A DNA stretch of 50,801 nt from an uncultured Bacilli bacterium (GTDB taxonomy: Bacteria; Bacillota_I; Bacilli_A; RF39; UBA660), in the NCBI GenBank assembly GCA_944332715.1, contig CALVKN010000006.1, positions 1 to 50,801 on the forward strand, written 5' to 3'. Positions within the stretch are counted from its first letter, which is position 1; each line of letters opens with the position of its first letter. The notes under the pieces are model-generated. The model searched no databases. It was not told where the DNA came from and saw nothing but the letters and a program-made list of their open reading frames with translations. Below are positions 7,826 through 30,960 of this stretch, one piece after another. A program made the translations under genes and the position numbers.

Positions 7826-7854
7826 TTGATTTCCTCCGAAATTTATCGTATAAT
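7826..7854 (+). promoter_or_regulatory. Promoter and possible operator of the AbiE-like operon
   Basis: TTGATT, a 17-bp spacer, TATAAT. The -10 box is bracketed by TTATC and GATAA (inverted arms), a plausible site for negative autoregulation by the AbiEi antitoxin. In addition TCCTCC within the spacer can pair with GGAGGA of the ribosome site at 7865-7870; it lies upstream of the expected RNA start, so this pairing matters only for read-through transcripts. Confidence 0.7.
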
Positions 7855-7873
7855 GATAATTAAAGGAGGAAAT

Positions 7874-8461
7874 ATGGTAGTTTCAAATAATATTCAAAAG
7901 AATAAATATGTAAATTATATTAATAAGGATACGAAGTTGGCTAGAGATGTTAAAGAAGGAAAGTTAATTAAAATTAAAAAAGGATTATATGAAACTAATC
8001 CTAATACTCCGGCATATTATTTGGCTAATTTTATATATGGACCATCTTATATCTCATTTGATTTTGCGTTATCTTTTTATGGCTTAATACCAGAGAGAGT
8101 AGAAGTTGTTACATGTGCTACATTTAATAAAAATAAGAAAAGAACTTATAATACCCCATTTGGAACATTAATATATAGAGATGTTCCTGAAAGAGTTTTT
8201 TCGCTTTATGTTGATTTACTAGAAGAAAATGGTTATGCTTTTCATTTGGCAACAAAGGAAAAAGCATTATGTGATAAATTATATACATTGAGTCCGGTTA
8301 AAAATATAGAACAAATGAAGAATTTATTGTTGTATGATTTAAGAATTGATGAAGAAGAGTTAGAAAAATTAAATATGGATATTATAAAAGAACTTAGTGA
8401 AATATATCATTCAACTAACGTTTCATATTTATATAAATTTTTAAGGAGGGTTAATGAATAA
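7874..8461 (+). CDS. AbiEi-like antitoxin / transcriptional regulator
   Basis: The 195-aa protein matches the AbiEi antitoxin group: an N-terminal winged-helix part (NKYVNYINKDTKLARDVKEGKLIKIKKGLYETN), then the characteristic PAYYLANFIYGPSYISFDFALSFYGLIPERVEVVTCAT block and the C-terminal antitoxin domain. AbiEi proteins repress their own operon and neutralise the AbiEii nucleotidyltransferase in type IV toxin-antitoxin systems. The ATG at 7874 is chosen because GGAGGA precedes it and because the longer frame would begin inside the promoter. It overlaps the toxin gene by 8 bases. Confidence 0.85.
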   Translation: MVVSNNIQKNKYVNYINKDTKLARDVKEGKLIKIKKGLYETNPNTPAYYLANFIYGPSYISFDFALSFYGLIPERVEVVTCATFNKNKKRTYNTPFGTLIYRDVPERVFSLYVDLLEENGYAFHLATKEKALCDKLYTLSPVKNIEQMKNLLLYDLRIDEEELEKLNMDIIKELSEIYHSTNVSYLYKFLRRVNE

Positions 8462-9314
8462 TATTTTACAAAAAATGCTTGAAAAATATGAAATAAATAA
8501 TGAACAAGATGAAATTAATGCAATGAAGGAAATTATACAAGAAATAGTTTTATCGGGATTAAGTAGAGGACTTTTTTTTGATGAAGTAGCATTTTATGGT
8601 GGTACTGCTTTAAGAATATTTTATGGTTTGGATAGATTTTCAGAGGATTTAGATTTTGCATTAATTAAACCAAATACTAATTTTGATTTATCGAAATATT
8701 TTGTATTTATTGAAAATGAAGTTAAATCTTATGGTTTAAATCTTGTTGTTAATAAAAAAGAAAAGGAAAAAGATTCTAATATAACTTCAGCATTTTTAAA
8801 GGGAGATACAATGGAACATGTGATGTTGTTTTTTACAGATAATAATCATCAAACTAATAATAAATTATTAAAAGATATTAAAATAAAGTTTGAAGTTGAT
8901 ATTAATCCTCCAGCAGGTGCTAACTATGAACTGAAATATCAATTATTACCATCACCATACCAAATTAGACTTTATGATCTTCCTTCTTTATTTGCAGGTA
9001 AAATTCACGCAATATTATGTAGAAAATGGAATTTAAGAACAAAGGGAAGAGATTTATATGATTATGTGTTTTTCTTATCATTAAATATTAAAGTAAACAT
9101 TGATTTAGTTAAAAATAAATTAATTGAATCAAAATATATAAAAGAAAGTGATTCTTTTAATATAGATATATTAAGGAAGTTATTAAAAGAAAAATTTAAA
9201 GAAATAGACTATGATAATGCTAGAGAAGATGTTATACCTTTTATCAAAAATATTTCTTCTCTTGATTTGTGGAGTAGTGATTTTTTTATTAATATCACTG
9301 ATAAATTGGAATAA
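8454..9314 (+). CDS. AbiEii/AbiGii-family nucleotidyltransferase toxin
   Basis: The 286-aa protein is an AbiEii-like nucleotidyltransferase. It has GGTALR (residues 49-54), the metal-binding RFSEDLDFAL with Asp65 and Asp67, the LFAGKIHAILCR segment and KGRDLYDYVFFL, the four motifs of the family. AbiEii toxins act as phage-exclusion or growth-inhibiting factors and are held in check by AbiEi. All key residues are present, so the toxin appears functional. It is translationally coupled to the antitoxin. Confidence 0.9.
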   Translation: MNNILQKMLEKYEINNEQDEINAMKEIIQEIVLSGLSRGLFFDEVAFYGGTALRIFYGLDRFSEDLDFALIKPNTNFDLSKYFVFIENEVKSYGLNLVVNKKEKEKDSNITSAFLKGDTMEHVMLFFTDNNHQTNNKLLKDIKIKFEVDINPPAGANYELKYQLLPSPYQIRLYDLPSLFAGKIHAILCRKWNLRTKGRDLYDYVFFLSLNIKVNIDLVKNKLIESKYIKESDSFNIDILRKLLKEKFKEIDYDNAREDVIPFIKNISSLDLWSSDFFINITDKLE

Positions 9315-13447: not shown

Positions 13448-13456
13448 TGATATAAT
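13448..13456 (+). promoter_or_regulatory. Extended -10 promoter of the Abi gene
   Basis: TGATATAAT with no good -35 box. It contains the ATG at 13455, so that ATG cannot be the start; the GTG at 13482, eight bases after AAAGGCGG, is the likely start. Confidence 0.65.
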
Positions 13457-13481
13457 GTTTACAGTAAAGGCGGTTTGGCGT

Positions 13482-14411
13482 GTGAAGACAAAGACTTTCA
13501 AAACATTAGATGAACAAATCGACATCCTTATTAGTAAGGGTTTAGTTTTTGATGATATCGAAAGCGCTAAATCTATTTTACTAAGAGAAAATTATTTCTT
13601 TTTAAGTGGTTATCGGCATGTTTTTTTGAATCCAGATAGGAAAACATTTATTGAAGGAACAAAGTTTAGAGAATTATATGCAATGTTTTCTTTTGATAGG
13701 CAGCTTAGAAATGTTATTTTTAAAAATATATTAATTGTAGAAAATAACTTAAAAAGTATACTTGCCTATGTAATGAGTAAAAACCATGGTTTTAAAGAAA
13801 AAAATTATTTAAATCCTCATAATTTTGTTAAAGATTCAAAGAAGACAAAACAAATAAATGACTTAATAAGAAAGATGAAAAGACAAATAAGTGTTAATGG
13901 AAAACAACATTCAGCAACAGCCCACTATTTGATTAATTATGGTTATATTCCTTTGTGGGTAGTGGTAAAAGTTTTATCATTTGGTATTGTTGGAGAGTTA
14001 TATACAATTTTACAATATCAAGATCAAAAAGAAATTGCTGATGTGTTTGGTGTTGACATTTATAGCATGATTGAGTATTTACCAATACTTGCTAATTATC
14101 GGAATTTATGTGCTCATGAAGATATTTGTTACAGTAATAGAACCCAAAAAGTAATTGAAGATACTAAGTATCACAGGTTGCTTTATATAACGAAATCTGA
14201 TGATGAATATATTTATGGCAAAAATGATTTGTTTGCATTGGTAATTATTTTAAAGTTTATGCTAAATAATGAGGACTTTACTTTATTTATTAATGAAATT
14301 AGTTATGAACTAGATCGACTTTCTGGTAAGTTGGAGGTTATAACAATAGATAAAGTATTACATGTAATGGGATTTCCTAATAATTATAAAGAAATTGTGA
14401 GGTTAGATTAA
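13482..14411 (+). CDS. Abi_2/AbiD-like abortive-infection HEPN protein
   Basis: A 309-aa Abi_2 family protein. The N-terminus FKTLDEQIDILISKGLVFDDIESAKSILLRENYFFLSGYRHVFL is the family signature, followed by FRELYAMFSFDRQLRNVIFKNILIVENNLKS. The HEPN RNase motif R-x4-H is present as R207-NLCA-H212. AbiD/AbiF proteins stop phage growth, probably by RNA cleavage. The start is GTG at 13482, set by the promoter and ribosome site. It is followed by htrA one base after its stop, so the two may be cotranscribed. No paired antitoxin is adjacent. Confidence 0.85.
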   Translation: MKTKTFKTLDEQIDILISKGLVFDDIESAKSILLRENYFFLSGYRHVFLNPDRKTFIEGTKFRELYAMFSFDRQLRNVIFKNILIVENNLKSILAYVMSKNHGFKEKNYLNPHNFVKDSKKTKQINDLIRKMKRQISVNGKQHSATAHYLINYGYIPLWVVVKVLSFGIVGELYTILQYQDQKEIADVFGVDIYSMIEYLPILANYRNLCAHEDICYSNRTQKVIEDTKYHRLLYITKSDDEYIYGKNDLFALVIILKFMLNNEDFTLFINEISYELDRLSGKLEVITIDKVLHVMGFPNNYKEIVRLD

Positions 14412-19215: not shown

Positions 19216-19584
19216 ATGAAAAAAGATTCTTTAGGTAGATTTATTGTAAATGCAAGAGCTAAGAAAAACATATCATCACGACAGTTGGCGATAAGTAGCG
19301 AAGTGTCAGCAGCTTATATGAATGATATTGAAAAAGGAAAGAGAGTTCCTACTTTTTATGTGCTAAAAAAAATTGGTTCAGCACTTGAATTAAATGATGA
19401 GAACATGTACAGATTGTTGGATTTGGCAGCCAAAAGTAGTAATAATAGAGTGCCATATGACATAATAGAATATATTATGCAAAATGATTCTTTAAGAAGA
19501 TGCATTAGAGAAAAGATTAAAAACAACGATTATTCAGGATGGGAAAGAGCACTTGAAAATTGTGGAAAGGAGGATATAAAATGA
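19216..19584 (+). CDS. XRE-family regulator of the restriction-modification operon
   Basis: A 122-aa protein. Residues 5-60 form a Cro/C1 helix-turn-helix (LGRFIVNARAKKNISSRQLAISSEVSAAYMNDIEKGKRVPTFYVLKKIGSALEL). The C-terminal half is an extra helical domain. As first gene of the operon, overlapping the first methyltransferase by ATGA, it is probably the controller that times methyltransferase and nuclease synthesis. The ATG follows AGAGGTG. Confidence 0.85.
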   Translation: MKKDSLGRFIVNARAKKNISSRQLAISSEVSAAYMNDIEKGKRVPTFYVLKKIGSALELNDENMYRLLDLAAKSSNNRVPYDIIEYIMQNDSLRRCIREKIKNNDYSGWERALENCGKEDIK

Positions 19585-20666
19585 AAAAATATACTGTAGT
19601 AGATTTATTTTGTGGAGCTGGTGGGTTATCCAAAGGATTTTTAGATGCGGGATTTAATGTAGTTTTAGGTGTTGACTTTGATGAACCAGCTTTAAGAACG
19701 TTTGAAGCTAATCACGGTAGTGCTAAAGCAATGAAGTTGGATTTGTTTAACCACGATAATATTTTTGAAATAAAAAAATATCTAGAAGATAATAAAATAC
19801 AATTGGACGTTTTAGTTGGAGGTCCCCCTTGTCAAGGATTTTCGCTTGCTGGAAAAAGAGAGGAAAATGATGAAAGAAATGTTTTGTATTCTGCTATGGT
19901 TAAAACAGCAAAAGAATTAAGACCTAAAATAGTAGTTTTAGAAAATGTTCCAGGAATGTTAAAACTATATGATGGCAAAGGTGCAAAACGTATCATAAAT
20001 GATTTTACTGAGCTTGGCTATAAAATGTCAGCAGAAATTTTATATGCTCCAAACTTTGGAGTTCCCCAAATTAGAAAAAGAGTAGTTTTTGTAGGAATTT
20101 TAAATGGCAAGAAAGAGTTTGAATATCCCATTCCAAAGATTAAACCTGAGAATTATATAACATGTGAAGAAGCTATAAGCGACTTACCAAGTCTAGAAAA
20201 TGATAATGATTATTCACTAGATAAAATTAGAGAATACATTATGGAACCAACAAATGATTACCAAAAACAAATGAGGAAAAATTCAATTAAAGTTTTTAAT
20301 CACTTTCCAACTAAGCATGCTCAAAAAACTATTGAAAACATTGCTAAAATACCGGATGGTGGCAATTATAAAGATCTTCCTGTTGGAGAGTCAGAAAAAT
20401 TTAAATATCATGAATCTTTAACGAGATACAATAGTAAAAAGCCATCTTTGACAATCGATACAGGACATAGAACACACTTTCACTATAAATATAATAGAAT
20501 CCCTTCGGTTAGGGAAAATGCAAGATTACAATCATTTCCGGACGACTTTATATTCTATGGTAGTAAGCAGCAACAGTATAAACAAGTTGGTAATGCAGTT
20601 CCACCATTATTAGGAAAAGCGGTAGCGGAAAAAATTAAGGAAGTATTAGATAATGAAGAAGTATAA
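19581..20666 (+). CDS. DNA (cytosine-5-)methyltransferase, first of pair
   Basis: A 361-aa m5C methyltransferase with all principal motifs: I (DLFCGAGGLSKGFLDAGF), IV with catalytic Cys84 (GGPPCQGFSLAGKR), VI (ENVPGML), VIII (QIRKRVVFVG), and IX-X (RLQSFPDDF, QVGNAVPPLLGKAVAEKI). It protects the element's recognition site on one strand. GGAAAGGAGG precedes the ATG, which overlaps the XRE stop. It overlaps the second methyltransferase by 14 bases. Confidence 0.96.
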   Translation: MKKYTVVDLFCGAGGLSKGFLDAGFNVVLGVDFDEPALRTFEANHGSAKAMKLDLFNHDNIFEIKKYLEDNKIQLDVLVGGPPCQGFSLAGKREENDERNVLYSAMVKTAKELRPKIVVLENVPGMLKLYDGKGAKRIINDFTELGYKMSAEILYAPNFGVPQIRKRVVFVGILNGKKEFEYPIPKIKPENYITCEEAISDLPSLENDNDYSLDKIREYIMEPTNDYQKQMRKNSIKVFNHFPTKHAQKTIENIAKIPDGGNYKDLPVGESEKFKYHESLTRYNSKKPSLTIDTGHRTHFHYKYNRIPSVRENARLQSFPDDFIFYGSKQQQYKQVGNAVPPLLGKAVAEKIKEVLDNEEV

Positions 20667-21864
20667 TATTATAGATTTATTTTCAGGATGTGGTGGATTA
20701 TTGGATGGATTTATGCAAACCGGAAAATATAATCCAGTTGCGTCTGTAGAATGGGAATTAAAACCAACACAAACATTGGCAAAAAGACTAAAAGAAAAAT
20801 GGAATATATCAGATGTGGATGAATCAGTGATGAGATTTGATATACAGCGAGTAGATGAATTGTTTAATGGATATGATGATTTAAAATATGGCAAAAATAA
20901 GGGATTATTAAAGATAATAGGAAAAAGGAAGATAGATTTCATAATTGGAGGGCCACCTTGTCAAGCTTATTCTGTAGCTGGTAGAGTAAGAGAAAAAAAC
21001 AATATGAAACAAGACTATAGAAACTATCTATTTGAGTATTATTTACAAATTGTAGAAAAATTACAGCCAAAATTATTTGTATTTGAAAACGTTCCTGGAA
21101 TGTTGTCAGCAATGCCAGATGGAACTCCTATTATAGATTTAATAAGACGAGATATAGAATCTAAAGGATATGAAATTATTGAGGATATAAGAAAATATGC
21201 TGTATTAGATGCTAGTGATTTTTCTGTCCCACAAGCAAGAAAAAGAGTGATTCTAATTGGTATGAATAAGGAGTATTTTAAAAATAAAAATATCCAAAAT
21301 GAATTAAAAAAATTTTATACTCAAATTTTACCAAGATATAAATCAAAAAGAAAAATTAGTGTTAAAGAGGCTATTGGTGATTTGCCAAAATGTATGCCAT
21401 ATTATCGAGATACAAGACCTTCTCATACAGATCCAGAATGCTCAATAACCTGGCATCATCCAAGGTATCATGGATTGAGAGATGTTAAGATATTTAAAAT
21501 GTTAGCAGAAGATATAGAAAAAGGTGAAAATCAGTATACAGATTCTGATATTTTGAAAGAAATATATAATAAGGCAACCGGTAGTAGCACAAATGTCCAT
21601 AAGTATCATGTTTTAAGAGCTGATGAACCAAGTACAACTATATTAGCTCATTTACACAAGGATGGTTTAAGATTTATTCACTATGATTCATCTCAAGCTA
21701 GGTCTATAACCGTTAGAGAAGCAGCTAGATTGCAAAGCTTTGATGACGATTTTGAATTTGTCGGTACTCAAGGTGATGCTTATAAAATGATTGGTAATGC
21801 AGTACCTGTAAAATTTGCAAATGCAATAGCTCGTGCTATAATAGAATTAATGAAGGAGGAGTAG
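20653..21864 (+). CDS. DNA (cytosine-5-)methyltransferase, second of pair
   Basis: A 403-aa m5C methyltransferase distinct in sequence from the first. Motifs: I (DLFSGCGGLLDGFMQTGK), IV with Cys103 (GGPPCQAYSVAGRVREKN), VI (ENVPGMLSAMPDG), VIII (QARKRVILIG), IX-X (REAARLQSFDDDF, MIGNAVPVKFANAIARAI). The target recognition region between VIII and IX differs from that of the first enzyme. Two different m5C enzymes in tandem suggest an asymmetric site, with one enzyme per strand, as in LlaJI. Strong coupling to its neighbours. Confidence 0.96.
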   Translation: MKKYNIIDLFSGCGGLLDGFMQTGKYNPVASVEWELKPTQTLAKRLKEKWNISDVDESVMRFDIQRVDELFNGYDDLKYGKNKGLLKIIGKRKIDFIIGGPPCQAYSVAGRVREKNNMKQDYRNYLFEYYLQIVEKLQPKLFVFENVPGMLSAMPDGTPIIDLIRRDIESKGYEIIEDIRKYAVLDASDFSVPQARKRVILIGMNKEYFKNKNIQNELKKFYTQILPRYKSKRKISVKEAIGDLPKCMPYYRDTRPSHTDPECSITWHHPRYHGLRDVKIFKMLAEDIEKGENQYTDSDILKEIYNKATGSSTNVHKYHVLRADEPSTTILAHLHKDGLRFIHYDSSQARSITVREAARLQSFDDDFEFVGTQGDAYKMIGNAVPVKFANAIARAIIELMKEE

Positions 21865-21870
21865 TGTAGT

Positions 21871-24183
21871 ATGGCAGGAATTCCAAGGGAGCATTCAACT
21901 TTATATTTTGATGCTTTATGTAGAACACAGAAAAAGGAAACAGTATTAAGCTTAATAAAAGCAACTTATTATGCAAAAAAAAATAATGCAACTGTAGATG
22001 ATGTAAAAAAAGAAATAGCTGAACGATTAAAACACGGATATGGATTGTTCAAAGACAACATTCGTGGATATGATAATGGAATAGGCAGTTATCAAGGCAC
22101 TTTAGAACAATTTTCTAGTCAGTATACGATAGGACACGAATTATCTATTTGGAAAAATTCAGATCTTGAACTAAACGATTTGGCAATAAAAGTTGCAAAA
22201 GATGAAATAACAATTACAAAATATTTTGATATTGTTTTCTTAAATTATTTTCAACCAGTACAAGGTAAAAATGTTCATCCATTATATTTAATTTTAAAAT
22301 ATATGGGCGAAAACAAATTAAGTGTTTTCGAAAAAAGTATGTTAGGCTTAGCCTTAACTGTACCAACAGATGATGGTTCGACTAACGCTTTATTTAACAT
22401 GCTAGGAGATACATCATATTTTACTTTTGAAAATAACAAATTGGTCTTTAATGATAACTATGATATTGAAAAGTTGATAGAATGTTGTAATACAAAGTAT
22501 TTGGGACAAAATGGTTTATTGGATGCAAAGAGAGAACTAAATGATTCAGATTCTTATATAAAATATATAACTTATGAAAATCCAAAACTAAATGATACAA
22601 TAAATTTAGATATGGATAAGACTTATATAAATAAATTTAGAAAATATTATGTAGATAATATTGAGAGATTGAAACGTGATCATGATTGGTCGACAGGAAG
22701 AAAAGACTTTTTAGCTGAATACCCATTAGATAGAATAAACATTCTTCAATTAGATGAATATGCATTAGGAACTGATAATTATGAGAATTCCTTTAGTTAT
22801 AAGTTAGAATATGGAAAATATAAAAATTTAGGGATAGGTATTGGTGGCGGTACAGCAGCCAAACATGGTATATATAGAAAAAAAGATACCAAAAAATATT
22901 ATGGAATAAACAATAAGGAAATAGATAATCCGCAAGAGTATTGGCTTCAATTTAGAACGGAATTATATAGTTATTTAAAAAGTTTAAGTGGTATTAAAGA
23001 TATGTATAATGCAAAAGATAAATACCCATACTTACAAGGTACTTCAATGGTATTAACAAAATTAGCAACCATTTATTATCCAGAGTATTTCTTGAATATT
23101 TGTTCAAAAGAAAAATTGTTAGTTATAGCAAGCTATTTTTCAATACCAATAAATAAAAATGACTCTTCAGAGAAAATTTCATTTGAAATAAACAAATTTA
23201 TTAGACGCATGATCCCTGAAGTGAATCAAAATCATTCATATTATATTGGCGACATGCTATATAAGTTTATTGATTTTATTGATGAAAATAATATTATTTT
23301 AGATGATGACAAAAAAGAAAAAATAAATCCATATAACAAAGAAGATTTCTTAAAAGATGTTTATATTGATGAGGAAGATTATGAAAAGTTAAATAACTTA
23401 TTGAATAAAAAGAAAAATATTATTTTAGAGGGTGCCCCTGGTGTTGGAAAAACATTCATGGCAAAAAGACTTGCTTATTCAAGGATAGGTTATGAAGATA
23501 ACTCTAAAATTCTAATGATTCAATTTCATCAGAGTTATTCCTATGAAGATTTTATCGAAGGTATAAGACCGGTTGATGGAAATTTTAAAGTAGTTGATGG
23601 AGTGTTTAAGGAATTCTGTTTAAAAGCGCAAAGTGATAAATCGAATAATTATTATTGCATTATAGATGAAATAAATAGAGGTAATATTAGCAAAATCCTT
23701 GGTGAACTTATGATGTTAATTGAAACAGATAAAAGGGATAAAGAAAAACTTGAATTACCTTATTCTGGAGATGAATTCTACGTCCCTGAAAATTTATATA
23801 TTATAGGAATGCTAAATACAGCTGATAGAAGTTTAGCACTGATAGATTATGCTTTGAGAAGAAGGTTTTCTTTCTACAAAGTTGTACCTGCTTTTAATAA
23901 TGAAAAATTTAAGCAATATATTGAGGAATATCTTGATAAAAGATTTGATAAATTAATTGAAGAAATTAAAAAACTTAATATTGCAATTGATGATGATGAT
24001 TCGTTGGGAGATGGTTTTGAAATTGGCCACAGTTATTTTTGCCAATTAAACCATGATTATGAAAAAGAATTGGATGATATCGTTGAATATGATATATTAC
24101 CTATGTTAAGGGAATATTGGTTTGATGATAAAGCAAAATATGAAGAGTGGGAAAAAGCATTAACTGGTGTAATAAATGAATAA
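21871..24183 (+). CDS. McrB-like AAA+ restriction NTPase (LlaJI R1-like)
   Basis: A 770-aa restriction subunit. The C-terminal part is a McrB-type AAA+ motor: Walker A GAPGVGKT (521-528), Walker B IIDEINRG (Asp599-Glu600) and the McrB signature NTADRS (649-654), followed by LIDYALRRRFSF. The N-terminal 480 residues are not McrB-like to my eye and probably read DNA sequence. In LlaJI the equivalent R1 subunit has a McrB-like GTPase domain and acts with R2. The ATG is 7 bases after the second methyltransferase, with AAGGAGG upstream; the end overlaps the nuclease gene by 8 bases. Confidence 0.88.
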   Translation: MAGIPREHSTLYFDALCRTQKKETVLSLIKATYYAKKNNATVDDVKKEIAERLKHGYGLFKDNIRGYDNGIGSYQGTLEQFSSQYTIGHELSIWKNSDLELNDLAIKVAKDEITITKYFDIVFLNYFQPVQGKNVHPLYLILKYMGENKLSVFEKSMLGLALTVPTDDGSTNALFNMLGDTSYFTFENNKLVFNDNYDIEKLIECCNTKYLGQNGLLDAKRELNDSDSYIKYITYENPKLNDTINLDMDKTYINKFRKYYVDNIERLKRDHDWSTGRKDFLAEYPLDRINILQLDEYALGTDNYENSFSYKLEYGKYKNLGIGIGGGTAAKHGIYRKKDTKKYYGINNKEIDNPQEYWLQFRTELYSYLKSLSGIKDMYNAKDKYPYLQGTSMVLTKLATIYYPEYFLNICSKEKLLVIASYFSIPINKNDSSEKISFEINKFIRRMIPEVNQNHSYYIGDMLYKFIDFIDENNIILDDDKKEKINPYNKEDFLKDVYIDEEDYEKLNNLLNKKKNIILEGAPGVGKTFMAKRLAYSRIGYEDNSKILMIQFHQSYSYEDFIEGIRPVDGNFKVVDGVFKEFCLKAQSDKSNNYYCIIDEINRGNISKILGELMMLIETDKRDKEKLELPYSGDEFYVPENLYIIGMLNTADRSLALIDYALRRRFSFYKVVPAFNNEKFKQYIEEYLDKRFDKLIEEIKKLNIAIDDDDSLGDGFEIGHSYFCQLNHDYEKELDDIVEYDILPMLREYWFDDKAKYEEWEKALTGVINE

Positions 24184-25234
24184 CAAAGATTATCGAATAA
24201 GTAATATTTATTATATGCTAGCTTATGCTTTTAGATTTGATAAGCTTATTGAAAAGGCTAAAACTTCTGGTGCATTTGAAGAATTTGAAAATATTTACGA
24301 TTTATTATCGTATATGTTATTAACTTTAATCAATAAAATGATAAAAAGAGGTTTTTATAAAGATTATAAGTTGACTACTGAAATAACTTCTATAGCAAAA
24401 GGTAAAATCAACATTAGTCAAACAATTAAAAGTAATACATTGATTAATCAGAAATTAGTTTGTGATTTTGATGATTTTAGTGAAAATATTTATCTAAATA
24501 AAATTATTAAAACTACATTGTTTTACTTAATAAAATCGAACAAAGTAAAGAAAGAACTGAAACAAAAGGTAAAGAAAATATATTTGTTTTTTGATGACAT
24601 TGATATATTGGATAACAGAAAAATTCAGTGGAACCAAATACTTTTAAATAAGTCAAATAAGGAATATAGGTATGTTATAAATATTTGCTATCTGATTTTG
24701 AATGAATTAATAATTACACAAAGTAATGGTGAAAAAGAGTATAAAGAATTTTTTGAGGATGAAAAATTATCCGTTATATATGAAAGATTTGTACGAGAAT
24801 ATTATATAAAACATTACCCAGATTTAAAGCCTGGTGTAAAAAAAATGAGATGGAACATAGATGAAGGATATCCAATGATTGATTTTATACCTACAATGAT
24901 TACTGATATAAATTTATATCATAAGAATAAAGTTTTAATTATAGATACAAAATTTTATGCCAATATATTAGGCAAAAGTAGATATGATAAAAAAATTATT
25001 AGTAGAGATAATTGGAATCAGCTATTTGCATATGTGTCAAATGAGGCTTATAAAACTGATGAAATAGTTAGTGGCATGTTGTTATATGCACAAACTGATG
25101 AAGAAATTGCTAATAATAGTACTACATCTGTAATGGGCAACAAGATGTCTATAAGAATTTTAGATTTAAGAAAAGAATTTGGTCATATAAGTACTGAATT
25201 AAATAAAATTGCAGATGATTTCATTGTTGAGTAG
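24176..25234 (+). CDS. McrC-like PD-(D/E)XK restriction subunit (LlaJI R2-like)
   Basis: A 352-aa McrC-family protein. The C-terminal nuclease core shows MIDFIPTMITDI with Asp236 and KVLIIDTKFYANI with Asp257 and Lys259, the D...DxK form of the PD-(D/E)XK site. The N-terminal region (YYMLAYAFRFDKL) fits the McrC domain that docks on the McrB-like ring. Together with the upstream NTPase it should translocate on and cut unmodified DNA. It is the last gene of the operon; a terminator follows. Confidence 0.88.
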   Translation: MNNKDYRISNIYYMLAYAFRFDKLIEKAKTSGAFEEFENIYDLLSYMLLTLINKMIKRGFYKDYKLTTEITSIAKGKINISQTIKSNTLINQKLVCDFDDFSENIYLNKIIKTTLFYLIKSNKVKKELKQKVKKIYLFFDDIDILDNRKIQWNQILLNKSNKEYRYVINICYLILNELIITQSNGEKEYKEFFEDEKLSVIYERFVREYYIKHYPDLKPGVKKMRWNIDEGYPMIDFIPTMITDINLYHKNKVLIIDTKFYANILGKSRYDKKIISRDNWNQLFAYVSNEAYKTDEIVSGMLLYAQTDEEIANNSTTSVMGNKMSIRILDLRKEFGHISTELNKIADDFIVE

Positions 25235-29103: not shown

Positions 29104-29154
29104 TACCGATAACGGAATGAATATGTTGACAAATGCTACCGATATCGGTATAAT
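29104..29154 (+). promoter_or_regulatory. fic promoter with palindromic operator
   Basis: TTGACA (29126-29131), 17-bp spacer, TATAAT (29149-29154): consensus. The perfect 14-bp palindrome TACCGATATCGGTA (29137-29150) fills the spacer and touches the -10 box. An imperfect copy, TACCGATAACGGAA, lies at 29104-29117 upstream of the -35. A bound repressor would block RNA polymerase. Confidence 0.85.
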
Positions 29155-29173
29155 TGTTGCAGAGGTGAAAAAA

Positions 29174-30100
29174 ATGGAATTTATGACTACAAAAGAAGCC
29201 GCTGAAAAATGGAATATTAGTGAGAGAAGAATAAGACAATTATTAGAAGACGGGAGAGTTGAAGGTGCTGTTAAAGTGGGAAACAACTGGAATATTCCTG
29301 TTGATGCTAATAAACCTGTTGATAAAAGAGTAATCAAATTAAATGATAATAAATTTATTATTGATTTAGATGATAATTATTTTGATGAAGTAGATACTTT
29401 AAAAAAAGAATTAGATAGCAAAAGACCAATACCTAAAGAAACTTTGAAATCTTTAAAAGAATCCATTAACTTAGAATGGACTTATAATAGTAATGGGATT
29501 GAAGGCAATACTTTAACATTAAAGGAAACACAAGTAGTTTTAGAAGGAATAACTGTTGGTGGAAAATCTATTAAAGAGCATTTGGAAGCAATTAATCATG
29601 ATAAAGCAATTTGGTTTTTGAATGATTTAGTTAAAGATAATGAACCAATTAGTGAATGGAATATAAAGAGTATTCATCAATTAATTTTAAAAGATATTGA
29701 TAATGAACATGCTGGAAGATATAGAAAAGAAAATGTAACCATTAAAGGTGCAACGCATATTCCTCCAGACTATATTAAGCTTCCTGAATTGATGGAAAAA
29801 TTGATATTAACTTATAAGACTTGGAATAAATATCATCCAATAATTAGAGCGGCATTATTGCATGGAGAATTAGTTAAAATTCATCCATTTGTAGATGGTA
29901 ATGGTAGAACATCAAGATTACTTATGAATTTAGATTTAATGAATAGTGGATATAATCCTGTAATTATTAAGAAAGAATCAAGATTAAAATATTATGAAGC
30001 ATTAGATAAAGCACATACAACTGGTAATTATACAGATTTTGTTAAATTGGTTACTAAATTAGAAGTTGAGATGTTAAAGAAATATTTAAATTTATTATAG
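29174..30100 (+). CDS. Fic-domain AMPylase-type protein with N-terminal helix-turn-helix
   Basis: A 308-aa protein. Residues 1-45 (MEFMTTKEAAEKWNISERRIRQLLEDGRVEGAVKVGNNWNIP) form an excisionase/MerR-like helix-turn-helix. The Fic core has HPFVDGNGRTSR (237-248) with catalytic His237. An N-terminal inhibitory helix S106-NGI-E110-G111 matches (S/T)xxxE(G/N), so the enzyme is self-inhibited. It would transfer AMP, or another phosphate-linked group, to Ser/Thr/Tyr of unknown targets. The start at ATG 29174 follows AGAGGTG; the earlier ATG at 29117 is upstream of the promoter. The HTH plus the operator in its own promoter suggest autoregulation. Confidence 0.92.
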   Translation: MEFMTTKEAAEKWNISERRIRQLLEDGRVEGAVKVGNNWNIPVDANKPVDKRVIKLNDNKFIIDLDDNYFDEVDTLKKELDSKRPIPKETLKSLKESINLEWTYNSNGIEGNTLTLKETQVVLEGITVGGKSIKEHLEAINHDKAIWFLNDLVKDNEPISEWNIKSIHQLILKDIDNEHAGRYRKENVTIKGATHIPPDYIKLPELMEKLILTYKTWNKYHPIIRAALLHGELVKIHPFVDGNGRTSRLLMNLDLMNSGYNPVIIKKESRLKYYEALDKAHTTGNYTDFVKLVTKLEVEMLKKYLNLL

Positions 30101-30109
30101 GAATCATCA

Positions 30110-30247
30110 ATGAGAGCAGAAACTAGAACTATTGTTAATAATTATTATAGTAAAGAAGAAATAATTTTTTTTAAGAAGTTTGCAAAAATAATTGATAAAG
30201 AATACATGAATAAAGAAAAACAAAGGTTAATATGGGAATTTGATTAA
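30110..30247 (+). CDS. 45-aa small ORF after fic
   Basis: ATG 9 bases after the fic stop, encoding a basic peptide (MRAETRTIVNNYYSKEEII...KQRLIWEFD). A weak ribosome site (TAGGAAT) precedes it. It may be a small accessory protein or a remnant of a longer gene. No family recognised. Confidence 0.4.
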   Translation: MRAETRTIVNNYYSKEEIIFFKKFAKIIDKEYMNKEKQRLIWEFD

Positions 30248-30282: not shown

Positions 30283-30960
30283 ATGAATTTATTAAATATT
30301 AATGAAGAAGCTCCCAAAGTATTTTATATTTTTATTGGACAAGGAAAAAATTCATATAGTCAGATTAATTTTCATAACTATAAATTAAATAAAATCATTG
30401 TATCCAGTGGTTTTAGAAATCTTACAGCAGAACCAGATAAAATAGAAGACTTTATCTGTGGAAATATTGTTTATGCTCCATTTATTCCTAATAAAACAAC
30501 TTTTAGTAGTCCATCATCTCATAGTATGACTGTTGCTAATGGATATAATACGGAATATATATTAGAATATATAAGGGTGAGTGATTATAAAAATTATCCA
30601 TCAAGATTTTCGTGTGTTTATGCATTTGGAGATTACGATAGTTGTAAAAAAGCTAGTAAATGGTATGGGTGGAATTTAAAAAATGTAAAAAAATTTAGGC
30701 TGAAGAAAACTAATAGCGTGTTGGATTCCTGTATAAAAATAGTTAAATGTAATATGGAAATCGTAACAAGAATGTGGAATTGTGATATTTCTATTTTTGA
30801 TCATAATTCTATAAATAGAATTGCAAAAGCTTATTGGAATGGAACAGGGAGTGTTGCAACGGAACAATTGGATATAGATACAGGATTACGCACACAAAAA
30901 GTTAGTGATGTATTATATGAATATTTGATAGAGGGTATATTAGAAGAAATCGAAGAATAA
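30283..30960 (+). CDS. Unknown protein, possibly ADP-ribosyltransferase-like (DUF2441-like)
   Basis: A 225-aa soluble protein. The central part, EYIRVSDYKNYPSRFSCVYAFGDYDSCKKASKWYGWNLKNVKKFRLKK, resembles the 'PSRF...yaF...A..W' pattern of DUF2441-type proteins, which are proposed to have an ART-like fold. An N-terminal strand YIFIGQGKNSYSQINFHNY would fit the first core strand. This is a weak fold-level guess; otherwise unknown. It starts at ATG with a poor ribosome site (AAGGT), ends at TAA, and only 28 bases separate it from the displaced amidase tail. It may belong with fic to a second, older insertion. Confidence 0.5.
   Translation: MNLLNINEEAPKVFYIFIGQGKNSYSQINFHNYKLNKIIVSSGFRNLTAEPDKIEDFICGNIVYAPFIPNKTTFSSPSSHSMTVANGYNTEYILEYIRVSDYKNYPSRFSCVYAFGDYDSCKKASKWYGWNLKNVKKFRLKKTNSVLDSCIKIVKCNMEIVTRMWNCDISIFDHNSINRIAKAYWNGTGSVATEQLDIDTGLRTQKVSDVLYEYLIEGILEEIEE

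Follow-up and report, generated by a model that had tools for sequence, protein, structure and literature searches.

Few regulators are known that keep anti-phage genes silent until they are needed, and how this silencing works is an open question. The window analysed here (50,801 nucleotides of contig CALVKN010000006.1 from an uncultured Bacilli bacterium) contains a gene that encodes a Fic protein with a DNA-binding domain of its own, behind a promoter that holds a palindrome. Does this protein repress its own gene, and which other genes stand under the same promoter? A comparison that took in about 90 relatives suggests that the protein (HTH-Fic) is probably a self-repressing class II Fic protein that acts as a portable autorepressor of its own, often cargo-bearing, operon.

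The HTH-Fic gene occupies positions 29174–30100 of the forward strand, encodes 308 residues and has 52 relatives in the close set as well as further full-length ones. Its likely start codon is the ATG at 29174, which is preceded by a ribosome-binding site read from the sequence (GAGGTG, 29162–29167, forward strand). The start at 29117 of the automatic longest open reading frame was rejected because it would place coding sequence over the operator and promoter, and because alignment with the relatives begins at 29174. Residues 1–45 (29174–29308, forward strand) are predicted to form an N-terminal winged helix-turn-helix (HTH) of the excisionase type, in agreement with the first-pass annotation, which had placed an HTH at the start of the protein. 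The N-terminus matches the excisionase model TIGR01764 (8.6e-6) and a phage excisionase family (3.3e-9), whereas its HTH_17 match (residues 3–43, 23.4 bits) lies under the Pfam cut-off of 27; the distant relatives L152, L164 and L166 score 31.7, 27.1 and 30.9 bits, respectively, against the same model, all above that cut-off. The HTH is the sole confident part of the structure model (pLDDT about 70–85 across residues 1–50). In Foldseek, it matches DNA-bound lambda Xis with a target-normalised TM-score of 0.66–0.68, an rmsd of about 2 Å and a probability of 0.93–0.94; the E-value is no better than about 1, the domain being so short.

The Fic domain (PF02661) covers residues 158–253 (Pfam E-value 1.2e-23). 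Its active-site motif, H237PFVDGNGRTSR (29882–29917, forward strand), is intact and follows the HPFx[D/E]GNGRxxR pattern of the class II Fic family. The inhibitory helix (S/T)xxxE(G/N) precedes the Fic core in the same chain as S106-N-G-I-E110-G (29489–29506, forward strand), and its presence makes the protein class II by sequence. This motif is invariant or conservatively replaced in nearly all relatives and, in a set of 115 distinct sequences, is conserved with few exceptions. The earlier reading of an active site combined with an S-x3-E-G inhibitory helix therefore stands, and its numbering of His237 and Glu110 fits the 308-residue protein. The closest solved Fic domains by sequence (E-value about 1e-37) are those of human FICD and C. 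elegans Fic-1, which are also closest by fold in a model that is poor over the Fic domain. FICD and Fic-1 share the inhibitory-motif logic of HTH-Fic but carry TPR domains and a membrane anchor where HTH-Fic carries its HTH. In one relative (L068, G205:C60), FPF replaces HPF and SNGIDG replaces SNGIEG, while the HTH and the promoter site are retained; this single case, without the catalytic histidine and the inhibitory glutamate, fits separable functions.

The promoter of the window gene consists of a −35 box (TTGACA, 29126–29131) and a −10 box (TATAAT, 29149–29154), both perfect and on the forward strand, which are separated by a 17-bp spacer (29132–29148), as had been claimed. The main predicted operator, TACCGATATCGGTA (29137–29150, forward strand), is an exact 14-bp palindrome. 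It had been described as filling the spacer; it does sit inside it but covers 12 of the 17 bases and runs over the first two bases of the −10 box. An imperfect copy, TACCGATAACGGAA (29104–29117, forward strand), is present upstream as reported, with two mismatches and 33 bp before the main operator. The search for the palindrome at other loci gave a divided answer. The 1.52-Mb genome of the window contains neither a second TACCG-N4-CGGTA nor a further site at up to one mismatch, but the palindrome recurs at the promoters of relatives in other genomes.

The close set comprises 52 relatives in public genomes, among which the site is present in each that has enough upstream DNA. Operator statistics were taken on 41 distinct promoters, the window included. 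TACCG-N4-CGGTA occurs in 41 of these 41 orthologue promoters, which is more than chance. The ten bases of the operator arms are 93–100% conserved, and the variable N4 centre takes 18 forms. The −35 box begins with TTGA in 40 of the 41 promoters, the −10 box is shared by 39, and the 17-bp spacer and the distance to the −35 box are kept in 40. In 19, the operator is accompanied by a second copy 33 or 34 bp upstream. Insertion of a gene or a reverse transcriptase before fic leaves the operator in place at the promoter of the operon (L011, L012, L059, L072, L073, L131 and L132). A reverse transcriptase of the group II intron type stands between the operator-bearing promoter and fic in L011 and L071/L128. 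A 102–110-residue protein of no known family is encoded directly before fic in L059/L132, L084/L131, L125 and L127; it lies between operator and fic wherever the operator is intact and typically has a conserved EYELEV-like tail near the ribosome-binding site of fic. Two HTH-Fic genes (L015 and L017) lie about 7 kb from each other on contig CAMNRN010000012.1, and both have an operator of their own.

This promoter geometry bears on the direction of regulation. The HTH is related to the MerR/excisionase group and the palindrome lies in the spacer, so a protein seated between the −35 and −10 boxes might turn the promoter on in the manner of MerR. MerR activators, however, need a spacer of 19–20 bp, and a promoter with near-consensus boxes at 17 bp is expected to be strong unaided; a winged HTH placed between such boxes should block polymerase. 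In addition, the sites of clades B and C move while their overlap with the core promoter is kept. Activation of this kind is thus very improbable, and repression is the reading that we pursue.

The site changes together with the protein in more distant relatives. At 62–70% identity, the arms have drifted to T[AT]CCG. At 54–60% identity, they read TACCG or, in one clade, TGCCG, and the TGCCG clade has two palindrome copies about 55 bp apart. At 41–46% identity, the promoters mostly contain two to four direct repeats with TTCCG. In the tree, the TGCCG palindromes fall in one clade (support 100/100) and the TTCCG direct repeats in another (99/95). In clades B and C the position of the sites shifts, but the core promoter remains overlapped. 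Three independent lineages have HTH-Fic genes behind direct repeats as well: a Leptotrichia plasmid, Mycoplasmopsis cynos and the Streptococcus phage Javan422, a prophage; no relative of HTH-Fic was found in viral contigs. Promoters of HTH-bearing Fic genes contain 1.7–3.2 half-sites each, versus 0.2–0.5 (shuffle level) for eleven HTH-less Fic proteins, several of which have equal Fic-domain identity. Half-sites thus do not exceed the background number in the HTH-less set, and the site follows the DNA-binding domain, not the enzyme. In the genomes of clade B, TRCCG-N4-CGGYA outside fic is mostly near background, and pairs 55 bp apart adjoin fic in G483, G550, G527 and G531. Two other patterns were discarded. 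A fixed 22-bp direct-repeat pattern in 296 genomes was uninformative as the spacing varies, and in clade C genomes a search for loosely defined TTCCG pairs lacked specificity, its counts equalling those of a reversed control.

The site is therefore conserved and tracks the HTH domain, and from this we infer direct binding, repression and operon control by HTH-Fic. Because a matching site is found almost everywhere the DNA-binding half is present, the protein very probably switches off its own gene. The proposal in the first-pass annotation that the protein represses itself through its HTH thus gains strong support from comparison, in which even remote lineages with the HTH have the site and Fic genes whose product has no HTH do not.

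Specificity was examined with the full 18-mer site in 243 genomes of the family. All 15 distinct 18-mers with a TTGAC −35 box at the right distance precede HTH-Fic. Twelve further sites do not have that −35 box; two lie at HTH-Fic genes and ten elsewhere. Most of these ten strict 18-mers are in genomes without any HTH-Fic, and none has a −35 box at 17 bp. At least three precede a small gene for a DUF7695 protein, again where the genome has no HTH-Fic, and something else may therefore read the motif there; these non-fic sites form the main argument for a second reader. TACCG-N4-CGGTA was seen before small zinc-ribbon-like DUF7695 genes in L061, L065 and L077 and in degenerate form in L189; the majority of DUF7695 genes do not have the site. 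In L060, L067, L078 and L081, palindromes lie inside a recurring ATATCATACCG...CGGTATAATA context that is intergenic and not promoter-like.

The identical 18-mer before DUF7695 genes and at other places without HTH-Fic is what would be expected if the palindrome were read by an unlinked host regulator and the Fic protein used its HTH for another purpose. A host regulator does not readily account for a site that tracks the HTH into other families, a Fusobacteriota plasmid, a mycoplasma and a phage, that changes in sequence together with the HTH and is missing from HTH-less Fic genes, or for the single site in the window genome. This alternative is improbable, and autorepression by the protein itself appears to be the best explanation of the site distribution.

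The lambda Xis likeness and the genomic setting point to another possible role for the HTH. Lambda Xis is its closest structural match, and a serine recombinase is encoded near fic in the window and several relatives, so the HTH could be the excisionase (recombination directionality factor) of a conjugative element and the promoter sites incidental. That the sites hold fixed promoter positions, and that many copies lie off this element, with relatives on a plasmid, in a phage and at chromosomal loci, makes this the least likely of the readings considered, slightly behind MerR-like activation. A portable autorepressor remains the preferred reading.

The genes that share this promoter vary. In 22 of 46 close loci, the fic stop codon is followed within 40 bp (in many at 6–20 bp) by the start of a gene on the same strand, and the downstream cargo genes nearly all differ between loci. 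Many copies, distant ones especially, are solo genes without cargo. In the window, a 45-residue open reading frame (30110–30247, forward strand) begins 10 bp behind fic and is common to the nearest relatives only; it appears to be what is left of the front part of a cargo gene, whose full-length version in L041 encodes 206 residues. It is followed by a gene for a DUF2441 protein of 225 residues (30283–30960, forward strand; PF10386, 26.4 bits against a cut-off of 25), which probably belongs to the same operon as cargo; L002 has the same arrangement with a DUF2441 gene. Several cargo genes elsewhere resemble anti-phage systems (Dodola, OLD/Ari ATPases, SIR2 and restriction–modification). Taking close and more distant loci together, the cargo that could be recognised includes OLD/AriA-like ATPases (L017, L042 and L125), a ThsA-like SIR2 protein (L036), a PHP/Ppl-like protein (L019), PDC-M11A (L124), Dodola (L134; DolB E-value 2.6e-116) and a type III methyltransferase (L158). 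Restriction genes occur in L049, and hsdM lies beside the Mycoplasmopsis copy. Many genes in the cargo slot match no known family. No conserved partner antitoxin was found beside fic, and the neighbours differ in almost every locus, which does not fit a type II toxin–antitoxin module.

The link to defence that had been proposed draws support from gene context, in tightly coupled cargo that is in several cases anti-phage-like, but does not extend to a significant enrichment of the cargo over its neighbourhood. PADLOC matches were obtained for 10 of 18 cargo genes and for 3 of 10 random genes from the same loci, a difference that is not significant, so the defence enrichment in the cargo is suggestive and not proven. 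The random-gene control shows that HTH-Fic loci are rich in defence genes in general.

This background of defence genes would also suit a stand-alone abortive-infection enzyme resembling Sofic, whose autorepression just keeps its own level low and whose cargo reflects a shared insertion hot spot. Sofic is a class II Fic protein, as is HTH-Fic, and acts as a single-protein anti-phage system (PMC12249575); many HTH-Fic copies are solo genes with their own operator, and the PADLOC SoFic and PDC-S04 models match the Fic domain (E-value about 1e-34). The SoFic match (E-value 1e-34), however, covers model positions 42–266 of 361 only, short of full length, and the window protein scores 32.6 bits against a cut-off of 550 with the NCBIfam SoFic model. 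Sofic also has a different domain order with a C-terminal domain (PMC12249575), and no conserved counterpart of its 47-residue AS1 antitoxin was found downstream of HTH-Fic loci. The gene arrangement is harder to reconcile with this alternative. In several loci the operator stands before a cargo gene and not directly before fic, and in many the cargo follows the fic stop codon by 6–20 bp; barring internal promoters, the cargo must then be part of the repressed transcript. A stand-alone enzyme is somewhat unlikely, although it is the strongest of the alternatives.

In the mechanism that we propose, the Xis-type N-terminal winged HTH would recognise a pair of CCG half-sites (TACCG-N4-CGGTA in the window) that lies between −35 and −10, and RNA polymerase would be kept off the fic promoter by the HTH-bound operator. 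The same promoter would, in many mobile-element copies, drive variable cargo located behind fic or between promoter and fic. The protein is best seen as a portable operon autorepressor, since one promoter type is shared with variable cargo, and would additionally bear an autoinhibited AMPylating enzyme. HTH-Fic thus very probably silences the gene that encodes it, along with the anti-phage-type genes that follow in many of the copies on mobile elements, and a role as a control module for defence operons is plausible.

A Fic autorepressor (CccR) and repressors of defence operons (BrxR, CapS and RptR) are already known. CccR of Yersinia pseudotuberculosis combines a class II Fic domain and an HTH in one chain, represses its own promoter by binding inverted repeats near its −35 and −10 boxes and has separable regulatory and toxic activities (PMC9755527). 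HTH-Fic resembles it in the DNA-binding domain within the Fic chain (excisionase-type HTH, residues 1–45) and in repeated sites that overlap its own promoter. The order of domains is reversed, however, with Fic first and HTH last in CccR and an N-terminal Xis-like HTH here. The CccR half-sites are 26 bp apart, in contrast to the 4-bp gap or direct repeats of HTH-Fic, and CccR is type VI-secreted and is not reported to head defence operons (PMC9755527). The WYL repressors BrxR and CapW are autorepressors beside very different defence systems (PMC9122601, PMC9122589); HTH-Fic has no WYL domain, and its ligand-sensing half would be the Fic enzyme. CapK–CapS (PMC13373217) and RptR (PMC12255303) are repressors that head or adjoin diverse immune operons, and RptR binds direct repeats (PMC12255303). 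CapK–CapS is a separate kinase and repressor and RptR a small lone repressor, whereas HTH-Fic is a fusion with Fic. No description of the N-terminal HTH-Fic family or its operators was found in the literature searched, subscription journals being outside the scope, and the N-terminal Xis-type architecture and the operator code appear to be new.

The family offers a compact answer to the question of silencing, an autoinhibited enzyme that would also act as repressor of the operon at whose head it is encoded. Recognition can be studied with the operators of the different clades (TACCG, TGCCG and TTCCG), and the operator, as a mark of operon promoters, may lead to defence genes in the cargo slot that are so far uncharacterised. 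A broader idea, which we regard as speculative and rather unlikely, casts HTH-Fic as a mobile module that generally controls anti-phage operons, in Bacilli and in other groups, with the Fic enzyme as the sensor. A change of its autoinhibited, nucleotide-bound state (or self-AMPylation) during infection would free the HTH, such that one polypeptide would detect attack, induce interchangeable effectors and modify a target in the cell.

The window contains further candidate defence genes upstream of fic. Positions 19560–25234 hold two cytosine-5 DNA methyltransferase genes, recognised by eye, followed by an McrB/McrC pair (Pfam); this region forms a second defence locus on or beside the conjugative element. 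An AbiE-like pair (7826–9314) and an Abi_2-like protein (13455–14411) were identified by eye only.
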